Shown in pieces: positions 10,932 through 60,746 of a stretch of DNA of 64,000 nt. The stretch covers positions 1 through 64,000 of the forward strand of contig NZ_JAEUMN010000169.1 of assembly GCF_016793225.1 (NCBI RefSeq). The letters run 5' to 3'. The stretch comes from Phenylobacterium sp. GTDB taxonomy: Bacteria > Pseudomonadota > Alphaproteobacteria > Caulobacterales > Caulobacteraceae. Position numbers and translations under genes: made by a program. Numbering within the stretch: the first letter of the stretch is position 1; each line of letters opens with the position of its first letter. Below the pieces are notes generated by a model that did no database searches, was not told the origin of the DNA, and saw only the letters and a program-made list of their open reading frames with translations.

Positions 10932-11008
<77 letters not shown>

Positions 11009-51231: not shown

Positions 51232-52440
51232 TCAGGCGCCCGGCACGCCGAGCTGGGCCGCCGCGTCGCGGAGCGCCTTCTGCTCGGCGGGCGCGCCGGC
51301 GAAGGCTCGCGTGGCGTCGCGGTAGGCCTGGGCCGCTTCATCCCTTTGCCCCAGGACCATCCGCGCCCGCATCAACCGCTCCCATCCGGCCCGGTCGCGG
51401 GGGTTCTGCTTGAGCCGCTCGGCAAGCCCGCCGACCATCCCCTGGATCATCTGCTGGCGGTCGCCCTCGCTCATGTCCTGGGCCGCCGCCATCTGCTCGG
51501 CCGTTGGCCCCCGCGGCGCGGCGCCGACGCCGGGCGGCATCGCCTGGCCCTGGGCCATCGGCGCCGGCGGGAGCCGCCCGGTGAGGTCGATCTTGCGCTC
51601 GGCGGCCACCTTCTCGACGAAGGCGCGGACCTCCATGGCCCACGGCGCCTCAGGCGGCGCGGAGCGGATGAGCGCGATCCAGTCGTTCATGGCCCCGTCG
51701 CGATCGCCCGACTGGTCCTTCGCGACCGCCAGGTAGTAGCGGGCCCGGGGATCGCCCGGGTCGGCCGCCACAGCGCGGCGGAAGAGCGCCTGCGCGGCGG
51801 GCCCCACCTGCCCATCCTGGCTGAGCACCGTGGCCTCGCCCTGCGCCGACAGGTACTCCGCGTTGTCGGGGTCGAGCGCCACCGCGCGGCCGTAGGCCGT
51901 GGCCGCCTCGGCGTTGCGGCCCGTCTGCAGGTAGGACCAGCCCAGCATGCGCCAGCCCTCGGCGTTGTCGGGCCGCTGGGCCATCTGCTGCTCCAGCATG
52001 GCGATCATGGCGCCCACGTCGCCCTGCGGGTGGTCTCCGGGCAGATCGCCGGCGGATGCGGCGGCCTTCGGCAGCGCGGGCTTCGCCGGGACGTCGGGAC
52101 GCCCGATGTTCAGGTAGAGCCCGGTGCCCGCGAGCGTGACGATGGCGACCACGCCCAGCGCCACGATCAGCAGGGTGCGTTCGGCGAACGGCCGGGCCGG
52201 CGCGTCCGGGCGACGCCCTTCGGCCAGCACGCGGCGCTTCAGGTCGCTCTTGAGCGCCTCGGCCTCGGGCTCGGCGATGACGCCCGCGGCGGCCTGCGCC
52301 TCGATCTCGCCGAGCTGGTCCTTGAGGACCGTCACGGCGTCGGCGCGCTGCGCGCGCTGGGCGTCGCGGCGGCGCACGAGCGGCACGGCGAGGCCCACCG
52401 CCGCAAGCACCGTCATCAGCGTCAGGATCATCCAGAGCAT
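51232..52440 (-). CDS. ccmI: Cytochrome c maturation protein CcmI (TPR)
   Basis: 402 residues. Two membrane helices near the start (MLWMILTLMTVLAAVGLAVPLV and about 90-112, LLIVALGVVAIVTLAGTGLYL) flank a cytoplasmic zipper loop. The C-terminal half holds TPR units such as GWRMLGWSYLQTGRNAEAATAYGRAVAL-like repeats that present apocytochrome c to the haem lyase. It lies 1 base or less from ccmH. Confidence 0.93.
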   Translation of the reverse strand: MLWMILTLMTVLAAVGLAVPLVRRRDAQRAQRADAVTVLKDQLGEIEAQAAAGVIAEPEAEALKSDLKRRVLAEGRRPDAPARPFAERTLLIVALGVVAIVTLAGTGLYLNIGRPDVPAKPALPKAAASAGDLPGDHPQGDVGAMIAMLEQQMAQRPDNAEGWRMLGWSYLQTGRNAEAATAYGRAVALDPDNAEYLSAQGEATVLSQDGQVGPAAQALFRRAVAADPGDPRARYYLAVAKDQSGDRDGAMNDWIALIRSAPPEAPWAMEVRAFVEKVAAERKIDLTGRLPPAPMAQGQAMPPGVGAAPRGPTAEQMAAAQDMSEGDRQQMIQGMVGGLAERLKQNPRDRAGWERLMRARMVLGQRDEAAQAYRDATRAFAGAPAEQKALRDAAAQLGVPGA

Positions 52441-52905
52441 TCAGCCCGCCTTGTCGGAATTGAGCAGTCGCGCGGCCTCGGCCTCGTCCTCGGCGGTGAG
52501 CGCGCCCACCTTCTGCGGCGCACGGCTGCGCATATAGGCGTAGGCGCCGAGCCCGCCCAGGAGCAGGACGCCCAGCGGCCCGAACCACAACGCGAGGGTG
52601 TCGGCCCGCAGGGGCGGCTTGAGCTGGACGAAGCTGCCGTAGCGCTGAACCAGGAAATCCACGGCCTCCTCGTCGGACGCGCCCGCGGCGATCCGTTCGC
52701 GCAGGATGATCCGCAGGTCGCGGGCGAGCGCCGCATCGGAGTCGTCGATCGACTGGTTCTGGCAGACCACGCAGCGCAGCTCCTTGCTGAGCTTGTGCGC
52801 GCGGGCCTCCAGCGCCGGGTCGGCGAGCTGCTCGTCCGGGTTCACGGCCGCGGCCGGCCCGGCCATCAGGGCCAGGGCCAGGGCGGCGACGGCCATGCGC
52901 CTCAC
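52441..52905 (-). CDS. ccmH: Cytochrome c maturation protein CcmH/CcmL
   Basis: 154 residues. Signal peptide, then the redox motif LRCVVCQNQSIDDSDA (CxxC) that reduces apocytochrome c cysteines, then LRIILRERIAAGASDEEAVDFLVQRYGSFVQLKPPL and a C-terminal membrane anchor. The short length matches the alphaproteobacterial form without a fused TPR part, which is CcmI here. It overlaps ccmG by 4 bases. Confidence 0.96.
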   Translation of the reverse strand: MRRMAVAALALALMAGPAAAVNPDEQLADPALEARAHKLSKELRCVVCQNQSIDDSDAALARDLRIILRERIAAGASDEEAVDFLVQRYGSFVQLKPPLRADTLALWFGPLGVLLLGGLGAYAYMRSRAPQKVGALTAEDEAEAARLLNSDKAG

Positions 52906-53438
52906 GATTCGCTCCTCAGCTTGGCCATCAGGGGCTCGATCTTCCCGCTCCAGACCTCGGGCGTCACGGCGCCCACGTGCCGATAGCGCACGCGGCCCTG
53001 CTTATCGATGACGAAGGTCTCCGGCACTCCGGCCACCCCGAGCTCGATGCCGATGCGGCCGGTGGGATCATCGCCGACACGGACGTAAGGGTCTCCGTTT
53101 TCCGCCAGCCAGCGCAGCCCCTGCCCCGGCTGGTCCTTCCAGTTCAGCCCGTGGATGATCACGCCCTGGGCCCGAAGCCGCATGAACACCGGATGCTCGA
53201 CTCGGCAAGGCCCGCACCAGGAGGCGAAGACGTTCAGCAGCACCGGCCCGCCGGTCTGCAGGTCGGCGGCCGACAGCCCCACGTCGCCCGGCCTTAGCGG
53301 CGGCGCGGTGAACGCCGGCAGGGGCTTGTCCTGATAGACCGTCGGAAGCCGGCTGGGGTCGCGCCCGAGGCCTGCGAAAAACACCACCAGGACCGCGACG
53401 AACGCCACGGCCGGAGCCAGGAACAGGAGACGCTTCAT
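52902..53438 (-). CDS. ccmG: Thiol-disulfide oxidoreductase CcmG/DsbE
   Basis: 178 residues. One N-terminal membrane anchor, then a periplasmic thioredoxin domain with the active site FASWCGPCRVEHPVF and the cis-proline loop GVAGVPETFVIDKQG. It keeps CcmH and apocytochrome reduced. The ATG at 53438 overlaps the ccmF stop. Confidence 0.96.
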   Translation of the reverse strand: MKRLLFLAPAVAFVAVLVVFFAGLGRDPSRLPTVYQDKPLPAFTAPPLRPGDVGLSAADLQTGGPVLLNVFASWCGPCRVEHPVFMRLRAQGVIIHGLNWKDQPGQGLRWLAENGDPYVRVGDDPTGRIGIELGVAGVPETFVIDKQGRVRYRHVGAVTPEVWSGKIEPLMAKLRSES

Positions 53439-55411
53439 TCGGCGGGCGCGGCGTAGGGTTGCGGCCGCGTGGGGGCGGCCTTGGCGGTGGATCCGATCCG
53501 CAGACGCCGGTCGCTGAGCGAGACCGCGCCTCCCAGCGCCATCACGACGCCGCCGATCCAGACCCAGATGATGAGCGGGTGATGCCACAGGCGCACGACG
53601 ATCCCCTGCGCCGACTCTTCGCCGACCGAGACATAGAGGTTGCCGCTCAGTCCCACGCGGATGCCCGCCTCGGTGGTCTGCGACTGGGCCGACGGGAAGA
53701 AGCGCCGCTCGCTGCGGAACTGGAAGTCGGGTCCCGGACCCTTCACGGCGAATCGGGCGGTCCGGGCCTCCCAGTTGGGGCCCCGGGTGGTCTCCACCGT
53801 CGTGAGGGTGAGCTCGCGGCCGGCGAAGGCGACGGTCTGGCCGGGCTGCATGTTGAGGACCTTGTCCGTCTCCCAGGCGGTCACGCCGGTGATGCCGAGC
53901 GTCAGCAGGCCAAGGCCGGCATGGGCGAGCGTCAGCCCGACGATCGCCCTGGGCGTCGTGAGGATCGACCGGGCCAGATAGGCGCGCCCCGCCCACCAGC
54001 GCCGGGCCAGGATCGCGATCGAGCCCGCCAGAAGCCAGGTCGCCAGCGCCAGGCCGCCCGCGGTCACCAGGCCCTTCACGCCGCCCGTGACGGCGGCGGC
54101 CGCCAGCACCAGCGCGGCCAGCGCGGCAGGGATGCGCAGCCTCTGGAAGACGCGCTTCGCCTCGTCGCGCTTCCAGTTCAGCATCGGCCCCGCCACCACG
54201 AGCAGCATGAGCGCCGCGGCGAACGGCATGAAGTTGAGCGTGTAGTACGGCGGGCCGACCGAGATCTTGTCGCCGTTGGCCAGCTCGATGAAGACCGGCT
54301 GGAAGGTGCCCCAGAACACGACGGCGCAGAGCACGCTGAGGAACAGGTTGTTCAGGATGATCCCGCCCTCGCGGGATATCGGGGTGAACACCGCCCCGGG
54401 CCGCAGGGCCGAGGCCCGCCAGCCGTAGAGCCCGAGCGCCAGGCCCGTCGTCAGGATGATGATGCCCAGGATGTAGACCCCGCGTTCCGGGTCGACGGCG
54501 AAGGCGTGGACGCTGGTGAGGATGCCGGAGCGGACCAGGAACGTGCCCACGAGGCTGAGCGAGAAGGTCAGGATCGCGAGCAGGATCGTCCAGCTCACCA
54601 GCGCGCCGCGCCGCTCCAGCACGAGCGCCGAGTGCAGGAGCGCCGTGCCCAGCAGCCAGGGCATCAGCGAGGCGTTCTCGACGGGATCCCAGAACCACCA
54701 GCCGCCCCAGCCGAGCTCGTAGTAGGCCCAGGCGCTGCCCAGGGTGATTCCCAGGGTCAGCGGAACCCAGGCGGCCAGGACCCACGGCCGCACCCATCGC
54801 GCCCAGGCCGCATCGACCCGGCCCTCCATGAGGGCCGCGACCGCGAAGCAGAACGCGATCGAGAAGCCCACGTAGCCCAGGTAAAGCAGCGGGGGGTGCA
54901 TCACCAGCCCAGGGTCCTGGAGCAGCGGATTGAGCTCACGCCCTTCGATGGGCGCGGGATCCAGCCGCAGGAAGGGGTTGGACGTGAAGACCAGGAATCC
55001 CAGGAAGCAGACGGCGATCAGCCCCTGGACGCCGATCACCCGGGCCTGCAGCGTCTCGCGCAGCGTGCCGCCGAAGAACGCCACTCCGGCGCCGTAGAGC
55101 GCGAGAATCAGCACCCAGAGCAGCATCGAGCCTTCGTGGCTGCCCCAGGTCGCGGCGAACCGGTAGGCGGCCGGCTGCGCGGTGTTGGCGTGGTTGGCGA
55201 CCAGGGTCACCGAGAAATCGCAGGTCATGAAGGCGTACGCGAGGCAGCCGAAGGCCAGCGTCACGAAGCCGACCTGCAGCAGGGCGGCCTGCCGGCCGAG
55301 CGCCATCAGCACCCGATCGCCCCGCCACGCGCCGACGAGCGGCGCGAGTGACTGGACGAGCGCCAGCAGGAGCGCCAGAATCAGCGCGAACTGACCGACT
55401 TCCGCCGACAT
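53435..55411 (-). CDS. ccmF: Cytochrome c haem lyase subunit CcmF
   Basis: 658 residues, about 14 helices. The WWD haem-handling motif lies in ELGWGGWWFWDPVENASLMPWL, and the conserved histidines are in NHANTAQPAAYRFAATWGSHEGSMLLW-like and later periplasmic loops. It attaches haem covalently to CxxCH motifs. It begins the ccmF-G-H-I unit and is divergent from the decahaem cassette, with 133 bases between. Confidence 0.97.
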   Translation of the reverse strand: MSAEVGQFALILALLLALVQSLAPLVGAWRGDRVLMALGRQAALLQVGFVTLAFGCLAYAFMTCDFSVTLVANHANTAQPAAYRFAATWGSHEGSMLLWVLILALYGAGVAFFGGTLRETLQARVIGVQGLIAVCFLGFLVFTSNPFLRLDPAPIEGRELNPLLQDPGLVMHPPLLYLGYVGFSIAFCFAVAALMEGRVDAAWARWVRPWVLAAWVPLTLGITLGSAWAYYELGWGGWWFWDPVENASLMPWLLGTALLHSALVLERRGALVSWTILLAILTFSLSLVGTFLVRSGILTSVHAFAVDPERGVYILGIIILTTGLALGLYGWRASALRPGAVFTPISREGGIILNNLFLSVLCAVVFWGTFQPVFIELANGDKISVGPPYYTLNFMPFAAALMLLVVAGPMLNWKRDEAKRVFQRLRIPAALAALVLAAAAVTGGVKGLVTAGGLALATWLLAGSIAILARRWWAGRAYLARSILTTPRAIVGLTLAHAGLGLLTLGITGVTAWETDKVLNMQPGQTVAFAGRELTLTTVETTRGPNWEARTARFAVKGPGPDFQFRSERRFFPSAQSQTTEAGIRVGLSGNLYVSVGEESAQGIVVRLWHHPLIIWVWIGGVVMALGGAVSLSDRRLRIGSTAKAAPTRPQPYAAPAE

Positions 55412-55544: not shown

Positions 55545-57998
55545 ATGTCGGAAGTCTATAAGATCGCGATCATCGGATCCGGTCCGGCCGGGATGAGCGC
55601 GGCCGCGCGCGCGGCCAAGAAGGGCATCAGCCACATCCTGCTCGAAAAGACCGACCACCTCTCCGACACGATCTACCGCTACCAGAAGGGCAAGCACGTG
55701 ATGGCGACGCCGTCCGTGCTGGTGCTGCGCGCGGAATGCGAGTTCGACGCGGGCAAGCGCGAGAAGATCCTCGACCAGTGGAACAACGACGTCAAAGCCG
55801 CCGGCGTGAACGTGAAGTTCAACGCCGAGGTGAAGGCGATCAGCGGCGACAAGGGCGCCTTCACGATCGAGTTGAAGGCCGGCGGCGCCATCCAGGCCGA
55901 GAACGTGATTCTCGCCGTGGGCACCCAGGGCAACCCGAACCTGATGCGCTGCGAGGGCGGCAACCTGCCGCACGTGCAGTACAGCCTCGACGATCCCGGC
56001 GAGTACACCGACGAGCACATCACCGTCGTGGGCGGCGGCGACGCCGGCATCGAGAACGCGCTCGGCCTCATCGCCGACGCCGGGCAGAACAACACCCTGA
56101 CGCTGCTGAACCGCGGCGCCGACTTCCCGACGGCGAAGAAGCCGAACGTGGACGCGCTGCTCGCCGCCCGCGACGCCGGGCGCATCACCGTCATGACCGA
56201 GACCCAGGCCGCCCTGGTGGAGCCGGGCTGGCTGACGGTGGACACCCCGCAGGGCCAGACCCGCTACAAGTGCGACCGCATCATCGCGCGCATGGGCGCT
56301 GCGCCGCCCCGGGCCTTCGTGGAAGCAGCCGGCGTGCAGTTCGCCAGCCCCGACCGCAGCGCCTTCCCGACGCTGACGCCCACGTTCGAGAGCACCAGCA
56401 AGCCGGGCATCTACGTGATCGGCGCGCTCGCGGGCTACCCGCTGATCAAGCACTGCATGAACCAGGGCTACGACGTCGTCGAGTTCATCAGCGGCAACAC
56501 CACCCTGGAACCCGCCGACGAGCCGCTGCTGCAGGAGAAGCTCAAGGGGCTCCCCGGGCGCCGCAGCGTCTCGGAGTGGCTCGAGTTCCTGCGCAGCCGG
56601 GTCGAGATCCTGAACGGCCTCTCGCCCCTGCAGATGCGGGAATTCCTCCTGGACTCCCAGGTCCGCGCCTACAAGGCCGGAGAGCCCATCTTCGTCCGCA
56701 ACGAGCCGGGATCCTCCCTGTTCGGCATCGCCGAGGGCTCCGTGAAGGTGGAGGTCGACCCCTCCAACCCGAACATCACCGTGCCGATCGGCGAGAGCTC
56801 CATCTTCGGCGAGGTCGGCCTGATCTCGGGCCGCAAGCGCGGCGCCACGATCCGCGCCGCCGAGCCGACGATCTGCGTCGAAATCCCCCGCATGGCCGCC
56901 CTGAAGCTGATGAGCCAGGTGCCGCAGGCTCGCGAGACGGTGCAGCGCATCACCACCGAGCGCCAGGTGCTGCAGATCTTCAAGTCCGGCCTGACCCCGG
57001 CCGACATCGCCGAGGTGCTCGCAGGCGCCGAGGTGTTCGAGGTGAAGCCCGGCGAGGCGATCATCAACGAGGGGGACATCTCGGACGACCTCTACATCAT
57101 CCGCTCGGGCTCCATGATCGTGGAGAAGAACCTGGGCGGGAAGCCCGTGTTCATGTCCTACGTCCCCGCCGGCTCGTACTCCGGCGAGATGGCGATGATC
57201 GAGCGCAGCCCCCGCGTCGCCACGGTGAAGGCCGCCATCCGCTCCACCGTCGTCAAGCTGCCGGCGGAGCCCTTCCGTGCGCTGCTGGCCCGCAAGCCCG
57301 AGCTCGCCAAGCGCATGACGGACGAGATGCGGGCGCGGCGCGAGATCAACGAGTTCATCGAGAGCCAGAAGGAGGAGTTCGGCGGCGCCGTCGACATGTA
57401 CTCCTCGGTCGCCAACTTCCTGATCAAGCAGGGCATCGGCGAGGCCACGGACGTGCTCCTCATCGACGAGAGCCTCTGCGTCGGCTGCGACAACTGCGAA
57501 AAGGCCTGCGCCGACAGCCACGACGGGCTCTCGCGCCTGAACCGCGAGGCGGGCACCACCTTCGCCAACATCCACGTGCCGACCTCGTGCCGCCACTGCG
57601 AGCACCCGCACTGCATGAGCGACTGCCCGCCCAATGCGATCCGCCGGGGTCCCGACGGCGAGGTGTTCATCAACGAGACCTGCATCGGCTGCGGCAACTG
57701 CCAGCGCGCATGTCCCTACGGCGTGATCCAGATGGACAAGCCGCCGCCGAAGAAGCCGCCGCTCTGGGAGTGGATGCTGTTCGGCAAGGGCCCCGGCCCC
57801 GGCCAGCCGCCCTATGAATGGCGCAAGAAGGCCGCCAAGGCCGAAGGCGGCGAGAGTCCGAAACTGGCGATCAAGTGCGATATGTGCTCGGGCAAGGCGG
57901 GGGGCCCGGCCTGCGTGAGAGCCTGTCCAACGGGGGCGGCGATCCGGGTGACGCCCGACGCCTTCCTCTCCGTGGCCCGCATAGAGAAGGCCGGGTAG
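55545..57998 (+). CDS. Flavoprotein fused to two cyclic-nucleotide-binding domains and four [4Fe-4S] clusters
   Basis: 817 residues. Part 1 (about 1-320) is a pyridine-nucleotide-disulfide-oxidoreductase fold: FAD motif GSGPAG (11-16) and NAD(P) motif GGGDAG (163-168), without the CxxC of thioredoxin reductase, as in YpdA/ferredoxin-reductase relatives. Part 2 has two cNMP-binding domains (about 355-470 and 480-595), each with a full phosphate-binding cassette (FGEVGLISGRKRGATIRA; SGEMAMIERSPRVATVKA). Part 3 is a DmsB/HycB-like ferredoxin with C645/648/651/655, C682/685/690/694, C713/716/719/723 and C778/781/790/794. The fusion suggests NAD(P)H-linked electron transfer gated by a cyclic nucleotide. 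First gene of the three-gene cassette. No start ambiguity; ATG 55545. Confidence 0.92.
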   Translation: MSEVYKIAIIGSGPAGMSAAARAAKKGISHILLEKTDHLSDTIYRYQKGKHVMATPSVLVLRAECEFDAGKREKILDQWNNDVKAAGVNVKFNAEVKAISGDKGAFTIELKAGGAIQAENVILAVGTQGNPNLMRCEGGNLPHVQYSLDDPGEYTDEHITVVGGGDAGIENALGLIADAGQNNTLTLLNRGADFPTAKKPNVDALLAARDAGRITVMTETQAALVEPGWLTVDTPQGQTRYKCDRIIARMGAAPPRAFVEAAGVQFASPDRSAFPTLTPTFESTSKPGIYVIGALAGYPLIKHCMNQGYDVVEFISGNTTLEPADEPLLQEKLKGLPGRRSVSEWLEFLRSRVEILNGLSPLQMREFLLDSQVRAYKAGEPIFVRNEPGSSLFGIAEGSVKVEVDPSNPNITVPIGESSIFGEVGLISGRKRGATIRAAEPTICVEIPRMAALKLMSQVPQARETVQRITTERQVLQIFKSGLTPADIAEVLAGAEVFEVKPGEAIINEGDISDDLYIIRSGSMIVEKNLGGKPVFMSYVPAGSYSGEMAMIERSPRVATVKAAIRSTVVKLPAEPFRALLARKPELAKRMTDEMRARREINEFIESQKEEFGGAVDMYSSVANFLIKQGIGEATDVLLIDESLCVGCDNCEKACADSHDGLSRLNREAGTTFANIHVPTSCRHCEHPHCMSDCPPNAIRRGPDGEVFINETCIGCGNCQRACPYGVIQMDKPPPKKPPLWEWMLFGKGPGPGQPPYEWRKKAAKAEGGESPKLAIKCDMCSGKAGGPACVRACPTGAAIRVTPDAFLSVARIEKAG

Positions 57999-58003
57999 AC
58001 GTC

Positions 58004-58882
58004 GTGACGCAGGCCGGGGGGCATACAGAACGCGTCAGGCAGAGGACCCACGAAGGGTTCCTCCGCCACAAGGGGTTCCTGTGGGCGCAGGTCGCCACAG
58101 GGCTGTGCGTCGTGGTCATCGGGGTCTACTGGCTGACCGCGATCCGGCTGCACGAGCCGCCCAGCGGGGGCAGCTGGCTGGGCTATCTTCTGGGCACGAT
58201 GGGCGCGGGCCTCATCGTCTGGCTGGCGTGCCTGGGCGTGCGCAAGCGGGTGATCACGGCCGGACACTATTCGCTCAAGGCCTGGGTGTCGGCGCACGTC
58301 TACCTTGGCCTCTCCCTGATCGTCATCGCGACGCTCCACACGGGCTTCCAGTTCGGCTGGAACATCCACACCCTGGCGTACGCCCTGATGATGCTGGTGA
58401 TCGCCTCCGGGGCGGTCGGGATCTGGGCCTACGCCACCCTTCCCGAGCGCCTGCACGGCAATCGCGGCGAGACCACGCGGCGGCAGATGCTGGACATGAT
58501 CGAGAGCCAGGACCGGCAGCTGCACGAGCTGGCGCAGCCGCTCGACCGGGACGGCGCGGCCGTCGTGCGCCTGTCGATCGAGGACACGGACCTGGGCGGC
58601 GGATTCTGGAAGCGACTGACCGGCAGCTACGACGACTGCGCGAACCGCAGGGCCCTGGCGCGCCTGCGCAACCTTCCCTCTCCCACCAGCGCCAAGCAGG
58701 CCGAGGCCCTGACCAAGATCGAGCAGGTCATGCAGCAGAAGGCCGAGACCCTGGCGCTGGCGCGACGCCAGATGCAGATCACCGCCGTACTCGAGGGCTG
58801 GCTCTTCGTGCACATACCCGCAACCTTCGCCTTGCTGGCGGCGCTGACGGCGCACATCGTGTCCGTCTTCACGTACTGGTGA
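58004..58882 (+). CDS. Cytochrome-b-like five-helix membrane protein
   Basis: 292 residues from GTG 58004, 5 bases after the flavoprotein stop. Helices at about 24-46, 58-79, 93-112, 122-144 and 262-288. Histidines in or near helices (H88, H98, H112, H122, H270, H284) are well placed to bind two haems b. A cytoplasmic or periplasmic helical region of about 115 residues separates helices 4 and 5. It resembles membrane haem proteins that serve as quinone or cytochrome partners of Fe-S subunits, but no named family was recognised. It would connect the cytosolic Fe-S domain to the decahaem protein that follows. Confidence 0.85.
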   Translation: MTQAGGHTERVRQRTHEGFLRHKGFLWAQVATGLCVVVIGVYWLTAIRLHEPPSGGSWLGYLLGTMGAGLIVWLACLGVRKRVITAGHYSLKAWVSAHVYLGLSLIVIATLHTGFQFGWNIHTLAYALMMLVIASGAVGIWAYATLPERLHGNRGETTRRQMLDMIESQDRQLHELAQPLDRDGAAVVRLSIEDTDLGGGFWKRLTGSYDDCANRRALARLRNLPSPTSAKQAEALTKIEQVMQQKAETLALARRQMQITAVLEGWLFVHIPATFALLAALTAHIVSVFTYW

Positions 58883-58886
58883 TCCG

Positions 58887-60746
58887 GTGGCGCAGGACTT
58901 CCAGCTCAAGCTCATCACCGAGCGCGCCGGCGGCGGCGACCCGATCGTCCGCGAGCGCCGCGTCGAAGGCCCTCAGGCCTCGATCGGCCGCGGGGCCGAC
59001 AACGACATCGTCCTGGCGGACCTCAGCGTCGACCCGATCCACGCCCGCCTGAGGTTCACCGGGCCCGGCCGCGTGAGCATCGAGGCCGCCACCGGCCTGA
59101 CCGTGGAAGTGAACGGCAAGGCCGTGCCGCGCGCCGACCTCAGCGCCGCCAGCCGCCCCGTCGTGCGCATCGCGAGCTACACCCTCGCCTTCGAGCCCGG
59201 CGAGGGCGAAGGCGTCGTCATCACGGTCACGCGCGAGGCGGACGAGCGCCACCTCACGCCGTCGGTGTTCTCGCTGCAGTCGCGGGTGTTCGGCCGGCGG
59301 AACATGGCCTGGGCGTTCGGGTCGGGCATCTTCCTCGTCTGCCTGCTGGTCCCGCTACTGGCGGTGCTCTGGTTCAACGAGAACAAGCTCATTCACCCTG
59401 ACGAGCAGTGGTCGAGCGGGCCCCTCTCGACGGCGCACGCATTCCTCGAGAGCGACTGCAAGTCGTGCCACGCCAACGCCTTCGTGGCGGTGCGTGACGA
59501 CGCCTGCCTGTCATGCCACCAGGCAGGCGAGTCCGGACCGAAGGCCCTGGCGCGCGCCAAGGAGGCCGGAAGTCCCTTCCAGCCGCTGCTGGTGGTGGAC
59601 CACGCGCCCCGCGAGCGTCTCTCGAAGGGCACGCCGTTGCCCGACGGCATCGGCGCCAAGATCAGCACGGTCATCCAGCGCGCCGTGGGCCATCCGACGG
59701 ACCGGTGCGCCAGCTGCCACATCGAGCACACGAAGCCCACGGCCAAGCCGGTCGACGCCGCGGCGCCGCTCACCGACAAGCCGACGCTGGTGGTCGTCAA
59801 CGACTGCCAGAGCTGCCACGCGCGCCTCAAGATGCGGCTGTCGGACACCGAACTCGTCGACACGCCGGACTGGAACCGCCACCCGGCCTTCAAGCCGCTG
59901 ATCATGACGGCGGCCGGCCCGAAGCCGCAGTTCCAGCGGGTGGCGCTGACGTCCGGACCGCAAGAGCGCAACGGCCTCACCTTCCCGCACCGGATGCACA
60001 TGGATCCGCGCGGCGGCGTCGCCCGCCAGGCCATCGAACTGGGCAAGGCGGCCGGCTACGGGAGTCCGCTCGACTGCGGCTCCTGCCACGAGGCCAAGGG
60101 CGTCGGTTTCCGCCCCATCGAGATGGAGAAGGACTGCGGCACGTGCCACAGCCTGGCGTATGCGCGGAACGCCGACGGCTCGCTGAAGCTGCTGCCGCAC
60201 GGCGAGCTGCAGAAGGTGGTGGACACCCTCGCCGGCCGCACGCTCGCCGCGCCCGGCGGCGCCGGCCGCGAGCGGCCCGGCACGATCCGCCCCACGATGT
60301 TCGCAGCCTCGGGCGCCAGCGCCTACCGCGCGACCTTCTCGCCCGGCGGCACGTGCTACGACTGCCATTCCATCAACTGGGAAGGCGACGTCGTGAAGAT
60401 GGCGCCGGTGAAGCTCACCCAGCGCTACATGCCGCGCGGCGCCTTCGACCACTCGATCGCCGAGCACGGGGCGCTCGGCAAGACGGGCAAGGCCGGTGCA
60501 TTCAAATGCGCCGACTGCCACAAGGCCCAGACGTCCGACCGCGCCTCGGACGTCCTGGTGCCGGACCTGGCGAAGTGCTCCACCTGCCACGGCCAGCCCA
60601 CGAGCAAGATCGCGGCGGCGGACGACGCCGACTGCACGACCTGCCACGCGTTCCACCAGCCGGGCGAGGCCACGCCCAAGCCCGGCCACCCGCCGCTGAA
60701 CACCCTGCGGTGGACGCAGATGATGTCGCGCCGGCCGGGCGCCTGA
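58887..60746 (+). CDS. FHA-domain decahaem cytochrome c, membrane anchored
   Basis: 619 residues, GTG start 58887. An N-terminal FHA domain (about 8-115) has ASIGRGADNDIVL with R35 and H52 of PIHARL, but the phosphate-binding Ser of the usual SRxH is Asp49. One helix (about 141-163) follows. The rest is periplasmic with ten CxxCH haem sites: CKSCH (191), CLSCH, CASCH, CQSCH, CGSCH, CGTCH, CYDCH, CADCH, CSTCH and CTTCH. Extra histidines can serve as second haem ligands. This gives a cytoplasmic signalling domain tied to a multihaem electron store or conduit. Haem attachment would need the Ccm system encoded next door. Confidence 0.93.
   Translation: MAQDFQLKLITERAGGGDPIVRERRVEGPQASIGRGADNDIVLADLSVDPIHARLRFTGPGRVSIEAATGLTVEVNGKAVPRADLSAASRPVVRIASYTLAFEPGEGEGVVITVTREADERHLTPSVFSLQSRVFGRRNMAWAFGSGIFLVCLLVPLLAVLWFNENKLIHPDEQWSSGPLSTAHAFLESDCKSCHANAFVAVRDDACLSCHQAGESGPKALARAKEAGSPFQPLLVVDHAPRERLSKGTPLPDGIGAKISTVIQRAVGHPTDRCASCHIEHTKPTAKPVDAAAPLTDKPTLVVVNDCQSCHARLKMRLSDTELVDTPDWNRHPAFKPLIMTAAGPKPQFQRVALTSGPQERNGLTFPHRMHMDPRGGVARQAIELGKAAGYGSPLDCGSCHEAKGVGFRPIEMEKDCGTCHSLAYARNADGSLKLLPHGELQKVVDTLAGRTLAAPGGAGRERPGTIRPTMFAASGASAYRATFSPGGTCYDCHSINWEGDVVKMAPVKLTQRYMPRGAFDHSIAEHGALGKTGKAGAFKCADCHKAQTSDRASDVLVPDLAKCSTCHGQPTSKIAAADDADCTTCHAFHQPGEATPKPGHPPLNTLRWTQMMSRRPGA

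Follow-up and report, generated by a model that had tools for sequence, protein, structure and literature searches.

A putative cyclic-nucleotide-gated electron conduit of the porin-cytochrome kind encoded in a Phenylobacterium genome

Results

A candidate inner-membrane module for electron export

We analyzed a 64,000-nucleotide stretch of DNA (the window) from contig NZ_JAEUMN010000169.1 (C76 hereafter) of a 4.6 Mb draft genome of Phenylobacterium sp., in which three consecutive genes, G1, G2 and G3, encode a flavo-iron-sulfur protein with cyclic-nucleotide-binding (CNB) domains, a membrane cytochrome b and a membrane-anchored decahaem cytochrome. Our best reading of the locus is a distinct electron conduit of the porin-cytochrome kind, with a putative cyclic-nucleotide gate, and on balance we lean towards G1-G2-G3 being the inner-membrane module of such a conduit, running from NAD(P)H to the outer envelope. 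Domain order, conserved ligands, gene linkage and co-occurrence are established at the level of sequence. From these we infer the electron path and its direction, the allosteric gating, the outer-membrane location of a barrel, exposure at the surface and a cyclic nucleotide as the signal.

In the proposed path, NAD(P)H would reduce the FAD of G1, and single electrons would pass through its four [4Fe-4S] clusters to a haem b on the cytosolic side of G2 (H98/H270). Within G2 they would cross the membrane to a periplasmic-side haem b (H112/H284), and would then enter the ten haems of membrane-anchored G3 and leave for periplasmic or outer-membrane partners. In the Phenylobacterium genome these partners may be a tetrahaem c554-like cytochrome, a likely barrel and a decahaem LVIVD protein, which would hand electrons on to an acceptor at the outer membrane or beyond it. 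Between flavin and Fe-S clusters lie the two CNB domains, where nucleotide binding could open or close the flavin-to-Fe-S step, with a linked class III cyclase and a CpdA/SpdA-type phosphodiesterase setting the nucleotide level. Flow is taken to be outward because the chain starts at an NAD(P)H-type flavoprotein.

All three open reading frames (ORFs) are intact and lie on the plus strand. G1 (55545..57998) encodes 817 amino acids and is followed after 5 bases by G2 (58004..58882; 292 amino acids, GTG start), a predicted five-helix membrane di-haem cytochrome b. After a further 4 bases comes G3 (58887..60746; 619 amino acids, GTG start), with a forkhead-associated (FHA) domain, a membrane helix and a decahaem domain. 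These coordinates agree with a first-pass annotation made from the sequence, which had described three plus-strand genes with the same gaps and read them as a redox chain from NAD(P)H through FAD, Fe-S centers and haem b to ten haems c. Ligands for that chain are conserved in all three proteins.

G1 combines flavoprotein, nucleotide-binding and iron-sulfur parts

G1 consists of a flavoprotein part (residues ~5–310), two CNB domains (~350–600) and four [4Fe-4S] sites (~637–802). Pfam recognizes Pyr_redox_3 (2.6e-33), cNMP_binding (PF00027) as two stretches (4.6e-33) and several Fer4 families, and the Fe-S family PF13247 matches at 8.5e-11. The nearest structure in the PDB to the FAD/NAD(P) part is YpdA/Bdr (7a7b, 1.2e-18, aligned residues 7–296). 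The tandem CNB domains, encoded at approximately 56592..57344 on the plus strand, match PKA/PKG-type regulatory domains in the PDB over residues 338–603, and the four-cluster ferredoxin-like region, at approximately 57453..57950 on the same strand, matches formate hydrogenlyase subunit 2 (7.6e-22).

An alignment of 86 G1 sequences (760–1100 amino acids; duplicates from loci L001 and L085 excluded) revealed that sixteen Fe-S cysteines and Arg190 are invariant (86/86), and that the NAD(P) motif G163-G165-D-A-G-I-E-N171 is 97–100% conserved. Glu423/Arg432 in the first CNB domain and Glu548/Arg557 in the second, which we take to be the Glu and Arg of the phosphate-binding-cassette motif, are likewise kept in 86/86. 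The cytosolic flavin/cyclic-nucleotide/[4Fe-4S]4 fusion described in the first-pass annotation is thus borne out by the NAD(P) motif and the sixteen cysteines, with two CNB domains in place of the one it had counted. A cyclic-nucleotide input, also claimed there, is backed by the conserved Glu/Arg pairs, by a phosphodiesterase gene nearby and, in fewer loci, by a cyclase gene.

Two further assignments for G1 were considered and set aside. The residue that follows the CNB Arg is Thr or Ser in the second domain of 74/86 sequences (Val in the window) and Gly in the first domain of 80/86; it does not decide between cAMP and cGMP, and we assign no nucleotide from it. A role as a thioredoxin or bacillithiol reductase was rejected: G1 scores 128 bits against the 339.9 required by the YpdA equivalog family of NCBIfam (TIGR04018), and its only cysteines within residues 1–310 are at positions 65, 136, 243 and 304, so this part contains no CXXC.

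G2 is a candidate di-haem cytochrome b

G2 carries the motifs W94x3H98x13H112, S135GxxG139 and W266x3H270x13H284. Among 25 aligned G2 proteins, H98, H112, H270 and H284 are invariant; two WX3HX13H motifs occur in 25/25 and SGXXG in 24/25. The two invariant HX13H pairs support the presence of two haems b, with the charge distribution placing H98/H270 on the cytosolic side and H112/H284 on the periplasmic side. A structural model (mean pLDDT, the predicted local distance difference test, 75.6) contains long helices compatible with five membrane spans. The window's own G2 has no Pfam match below 0.05 and none to cytochrome b561 (PF01292), a family matched by the other 24 of the 25 alignment members at E ≤ 10 (best 4.2e-7); matches to PF01794 are weak (4/25, best 0.011). 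Foldseek found no PDB match to the model at E ≤ 0.001, so the haem-b assignment relies on the motifs and PF01292 and not on the fold. Together, these data support G2 as a five-helix di-haem b membrane protein, its four invariant histidines fitting the haem b protein of the first-pass annotation. Some G2 matches contain one in-frame stop inside the matched stretch (in locus L106 and, for example, genomes G588, G731 and G781).

G3 is a decahaem cytochrome with an FHA domain and a membrane anchor

The predicted layout of G3 is a cytosolic FHA domain (residues ~4–116), a membrane helix (137–163) and a periplasmic decahaem domain (~184–590). Pfam detects FHA (2.2e-6) and c7/c3-type haem domains. 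Ten CXXCH motifs are present in the window's G3 and in every called G3 of at least 560 amino acids at the fetched loci. Shorter called proteins with fewer motifs occur at L001, L024, L043, L068 and L084; four are cut by the end of the stretch, and that of L043 (530 amino acids, 7 CXXCH) stops near a contig end. Nine further histidines beyond the CXXCH motifs are invariant in 82 aligned sequences (560–700 amino acids, the same two duplicates excluded). The helix, the ten motifs, these histidines and the FHA fold agree with the FHA-anchored decahaem cytochrome proposed earlier.

The FHA fold is predicted with block-mean pLDDT values of 86–98 over residues 1–120, and Foldseek places it nearest to GarA/OdhI (best hit 8p5x, 4.9e-6). 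The haem part was modeled poorly (whole-model predicted template modelling score 0.36) and is left uninterpreted; as a single sequence, G3 matched no solved structure at E ≤ 0.1. Gly-Arg, Ser-x-x-His and Asn are presumably the residues by which FHA domains contact phosphothreonine. In G3, G34/R35 are kept in 82/82 and H52 in 80/82, N76 in 24%, and the position of the phosphothreonine-binding Ser holds Ser in only 5/82. The FHA fold stands, but with this usual Ser not conserved a phosphothreonine input through it is doubtful, and the second regulatory input claimed for FHA in the first-pass annotation is weakened. The genome has one Ser/Thr kinase match.

The three genes are inherited together

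We fetched the best 80 contigs by G1 match. G2 is present in 79/80 of these loci and G3 in 77/80, and 77/80 carry all three genes. L021, L037 and L049 lack G3, and in each the last match lies less than 64 bases or just 64 bases from the contig end. This linkage is not due to chance. In a sample of 385 alphaproteobacterial genomes, 36 have G1 (E ≤ 1e-100) and all of these also have a strong G2 (E ≤ 2.3e-74), which occurs in 37; eleven further genomes have a distant G2 only. By coordinates, G1 and G2 adjoin in 32 of the 36. A phylum-wide sample of 398 genomes contains a strong G2 (E ≤ 1.2e-56) in 15, including the window's own; the other 14 all have G1. In four genomes of this sample G2 is distant and a full-length G1 is lacking. 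Co-inheritance, a check by which the first-pass annotation would have been refuted, is supported, with exceptions where G1 and G2 lie apart (4/36) and in one genome with G2 and no G1.

Two genomes of one genus outside Alphaproteobacteria encode G1 and G2 as a single ORF (L119:3100-6423 and L120:5850-9206, 1107 and 1118 amino acids), followed by a nine-haem G3. This fusion fits a direct docking of G1 and G2. In another genus (f137/g356; L148:4183-10297 and L150:1199-7310), G1 adjoins the gene for an LVIVD decahaem protein, not G2, and G2-G3 lie several kilobases or one contig away.

Genes were called with a program of our own, which placed genes on the wrong strand or missed them at several loci (for example L023, L025, L031, L142, L143, L149, L181 and L184). 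L181 and L184 were read by tblastn instead, and G1 of L117 and L146, also missed, was recovered by genome search.

An outer gene set accompanies the cassette

Linked signal and outer genes lie on C76, 1.5–14.7 kb beyond the end of the window. The outer set is on the minus strand and comprises a decahaem LVIVD-propeller protein (C76:69849-73826), a barrel-like protein, likely of the outer membrane (C76:73834 to ~75663), an HbpS-like protein (C76:75850-77808) and a tetrahaem, c554-like cytochrome (C76:77805 to the contig end at 78701). The tetrahaem gene is cut by the contig end; its visible part has 2 CXXCH and is 78% identical to an L185 protein with 4. A same-strand run from G3 through the HbpS-like and barrel genes to the start of LVIVD is found in 12 alphaproteobacterial loci (L139-L141, L147, L154-L156, L161, L163 and L165-L167). 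Where complete, the LVIVD protein has ~1240–1380 amino acids. The barrel-like protein has ~600, ends in Tyr or Phe in 19/19 sequences and has signal-like N-termini as judged by eye, which makes a location in the outer membrane likely.

The decahaem LVIVD protein (E ≤ 1e-50) occurs in 29 of the 385 alphaproteobacterial genomes, and all 29 are among the 36 with G1 (hypergeometric 2e-37, relatedness ignored). Within a selected set it is present in 16/16 cassette-positive and 0/11 cassette-negative genomes. For Phenylobacterium the counts are 7/7 and 0/11, the 11 negatives being a subset of the 29 genomes without a G3 match. G1-G3 therefore appear to form the inner-membrane part of a locus that extends to LVIVD and a likely barrel, and not the complete three-gene system claimed in the first-pass annotation.

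The outer set could instead point to an enzyme: electrons would serve the LVIVD or the HbpS-like protein as a periplasmic or surface reductase of a soluble compound, such as an oxyanion or a peroxide, with no long-range export. The LVIVD protein has a region resembling ExtM, a c-type cytochrome of selenite/tellurite reduction operons (4.8e-23, below the cut-off), the Pfam name of the HbpS-like domain, and only that name, refers to haem degradation, and the barrel evidence is modest. Seven G1 genomes lack LVIVD. Four of them (G502, G542, G553 and G790) retain G1-G2-G3 with another outer set, made of a 5-haem protein, a 4-haem protein and a second barrel-like protein; in G553 these genes adjoin G2, with G1 on another contig. 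A 4-haem gene is also seen in G494 and G679, both G1-positive and without LVIVD. Such alternative outer sets fit a general conduit better than a single enzyme, and we regard the enzyme explanation as unlikely.

Candidate signal-turnover genes lie near the cassette

The gene for the CpdA/SpdA-type phosphodiesterase (C76:65526-66359) is followed by that for a CHASE2 class III cyclase (C76:66363-68237). In 44/66 loci the phosphodiesterase gene directly follows G3; of the 80 loci, this count leaves aside 14 in which no G3 was called or fewer than 900 bases lie beyond it. The remaining 22 of the 66 are mostly from Caulobacteraceae. Matches to both enzymes were sought among called genes only. In three Phenylobacterium contigs (C76, L184 and L185), phosphodiesterase and cyclase stand as a pair between inner and outer genes. 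L126 reads cyclase, phosphodiesterase, G1, G2, G3, ccmF, ccmH, and at L145 a second copy of G1 has a cyclase two genes away. The phosphodiesterase falls short of the NCBIfam equivalog cut-offs of both CpdA (NF008359, 94.7 of 225 bits) and SpdA (NF050112, 134.1 of 400).

Observations that weigh against a gated conduit

Several results tell against the gated conduit favored above. As to the conduit, G3 falls in no MtrA-type conduit family (MtrA/DmsE decahaem, TIGR03508, E 0.075). The barrel alignment found no PDB match at E ≤ 1 and gave weak Alginate_exp matches (4/19, best 0.0015), and its alternation test was not significant, 37 of 500 shuffles reaching the observed value. As to the gate, a cyclase is linked at five loci only (C76, L184, L185, L126 and L145), and the three Phenylobacterium cyclases have Val at a position where most class III cyclases have, we presume, a catalytic Asn. 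The phosphodiesterase scores better against SpdA, a 2',3'-cyclic-nucleotide enzyme (7e-39), than against CpdA, a 3',5'-cAMP enzyme (6.7e-27). The genome has five cyclase matches, four besides the linked one, so the linked cyclase need not be the nucleotide source. As to the linkage, G1 and G2 are separated in G553 and, all of one genus, in G606, G694 and G764. G648 lacks G1, and its G2 is flanked by a 4-haem gene and a gene for a haem protein on a contig of 4.8 kb.

Comparison with known and predicted conduits

The closest relatives of this arrangement are PCC3 and PCC4, porin-cytochrome conduits predicted by He et al. 2017 (PMC5566968). The main text of that paper describes PCC4 as comprising a porin, 4-, 5- and 10-haem cytochromes and a five-helix inner-membrane protein that bears SGXXG and two copies of WX3HX13H; in subgroup II, an Fe-S gene (PF13247) lies upstream of the gene for this protein. 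By that description, G2 carries the motif set of the PCC4 inner-membrane protein, and the adjoining 10-haem gene and the upstream PF13247 gene are placed as G3 and G1 are here; the PCC4 tetrahaem cytochrome has a homologue at C76:77805-78701. Neither in the window nor in C76:60001-78701, which runs to the contig end, did two pentahaem reference cytochromes find a match at 1e-5, and we therefore do not class the locus as PCC4. Unlike the PCC4 described there, it joins the Fe-S protein in one polypeptide to a YpdA-like flavoprotein and a pair of CNB domains, equips the 10-haem protein with FHA and a membrane anchor, and has an outer set made of another barrel-like protein, the decahaem LVIVD protein and the HbpS-like protein. 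A search of the main text of PMC5566968 for the terms cyclic nucleotide, cNMP, CRP, cAMP and FHA gave no occurrence. PCC3, as presented there, has the same kind of inner-membrane protein and cytochromes with usually many more haems.

A 2023 survey lists, under 'Other' and with no function, a 'Forkhead-associated protein' with ten haem motifs in 27/87 Gallionellaceae iron oxidizers (PMC10734462, Table 1). As described in the table, it resembles G3 in combining FHA and ten haem motifs in one protein.

Both sources lend some weight to a flow in the opposite direction, in which Fe(II), Mn(II) or another donor outside the cell would supply electrons to NAD(P)+ at G1 or, by way of G2, to quinone. 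He et al. proposed that PCC3 and PCC4 serve iron oxidizers for electron uptake, with the inner-membrane protein feeding quinone (PMC5566968, main text), and the Gallionellaceae with the FHA protein are iron oxidizers. Against this stands the start of the chain at an NAD(P)H-type flavoprotein on the same polypeptide as the Fe-S clusters. Reduction of NAD(P)+ by Fe(II) or Mn(II) would be uphill, and G1-G3 contain no recognized ion-coupling unit. Hosts of the cassette are also mostly heterotrophs. We consider inward flow improbable and keep the outward direction.

With MtrCAB, MtoAB and PioAB, the locus shares a decahaem cytochrome and an outer-membrane barrel, here a likely one. It differs from them in that G3 is not of the MtrA family and in its entry, where a soluble flavo-Fe-S protein would supply a putative di-haem b protein in place of CymA, the membrane entry of Mtr-type conduits. 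NAD(P)H oxidases, ferric reductases and cytochrome b561 resemble it in having two HX13H haem-b pairs and a cytosolic flavin supply; here the step from flavin to haem would proceed through four Fe-S clusters and a separate protein. YpdA/Bdr has FAD and NAD(P) domains like those of G1, which is additionally fused to CNB and Fe-S domains.

Loci with a distant G2 extend the comparison. Fourteen were fetched (L121-L124 and L128-L137; a fifteenth, G708, lies outside the set), and L124 and L129-L137 are PCC4-like by gene content, not by comparison with sequences of the PCC4 paper. These ten carry CNB-4Fe-4S, haem-b and decahaem genes together (for example L124:4405-10382), several with a separate FAD/NAD/2Fe-2S-type reductase gene, which is a swapped electron-input module. 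Their Fe-S donors, aligned from ten loci, have CNB domains in 10/10, with Glu149 and Arg158 invariant. The distant G2 of nine PCC4-like loci and of L122 has both WX3HX13H motifs and SGXXG (10/10). No Fe-S donor gene was found beside G2 among called genes of L121, L122 and L128; at L123, which was miscalled, genome search found a match to G1 residues 506–802 near G2. At L121:8163-10978, the distant G2 relative lies directly before a gene for a 24-CXXCH protein, in a PCC3-like arrangement. The Phenylobacterium genome itself has a second region (C80:5260-8640, L186) with a 7-haem protein (235 amino acids), a G2-like membrane protein (243 amino acids, 27% identity to G2) and a 652-amino-acid FAD/NAD/2Fe-2S reductase; no porin-like gene was recognized in the 12 kb read.

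In the literature searched, to which subscription journals mostly do not belong, we recognized no description of this combination. The first-pass annotation had known of no characterized system of this make-up; that holds for the combination, and the parts as they occur together in PCC4 had already been predicted (PMC5566968, main text). The conduit kind is thus known, as a prediction. What is new here is an entry through a putatively gated flavo-Fe-S protein, together with an FHA anchor, an outer set that includes LVIVD, and messenger genes linked to the locus.

Genes surrounding the cassette

Cytochrome c maturation (ccm) genes lie upstream on the minus strand, divergent from G1: ccmF (53435..55411; PF16327 2.8e-92, TIGR00353 above cut-off), ccmG/dsbE (52902..53438; TIGR00385 above cut-off), ccmH (52441..52896; PF03918 5.4e-50) and the ccmI/cycH TPR protein (51232..52440; TIGR03142 above cut-off, PF23914 9.6e-22). 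Divergent ccmF-G-H-I genes likewise lie upstream in many Caulobacteraceae and in some sphingomonad and Rhizobiales loci, and at L126 ccmF and ccmH follow G3 on the same strand. This proximity raises a third explanation, in which the cassette would feed reductant to the adjacent machinery for cytochrome c maturation or envelope redox balance. Cytochromes of the c type and their maturation are general in Alphaproteobacteria, whereas 349 of the 385 genomes of this class lack G1, and many cassette loci have no ccmF, ccmG or ccmH nearby. Such a service role is very improbable, and the adjacency is explained by a multihaem system sitting with its maturation genes. At L128:1-9350, a distant G2 relative lies beside 13- and 21-CXXCH proteins and is divergent from ccmF-G-H-I; the ccm neighborhood therefore recurs beside a PCC3-like cluster.

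Downstream of G3 lies a glutamate dehydrogenase gene on the minus strand. Genes for a thiamine-diphosphate enzyme (C76:62369-64015) and an aldehyde dehydrogenase (C76:64041-65474) come next, and this pair stands between glutamate dehydrogenase and phosphodiesterase in three Phenylobacterium contigs. A tRNA gene at 10932-11005 is the sole Rfam match at the gathering threshold in the window.

Discussion

The CNB domains in the donors of both the present locus and the PCC4-like clusters invite a broader proposal, which we put forward tentatively as possible: a second messenger may bind the electron donor itself and so gate the flow from NAD(P)H to the outside. Two related conduit families, the present flavo-CNB-Fe-S type and the PCC4-like clusters with their CNB-Fe-S donors, would share this gate. 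It would operate in Alphaproteobacteria regarded as ordinary aerobes, some lineages having the genes for cyclase and phosphodiesterase at the same locus.

To our knowledge, known outer-membrane electron conduits are controlled by transcription or by acceptor supply. If our proposal is correct, an entry enzyme with its own cyclic-nucleotide receptor would switch electron export directly and offer bioelectronics a ready part. The cassette is present in cultured strains such as Brevundimonas denitrificans, Novosphingobium hassiacum and Erythrobacter cryptus, which makes the proposal testable in the laboratory. An ordinary soil or water bacterium would then be able to switch an outward electron current by a small messenger.

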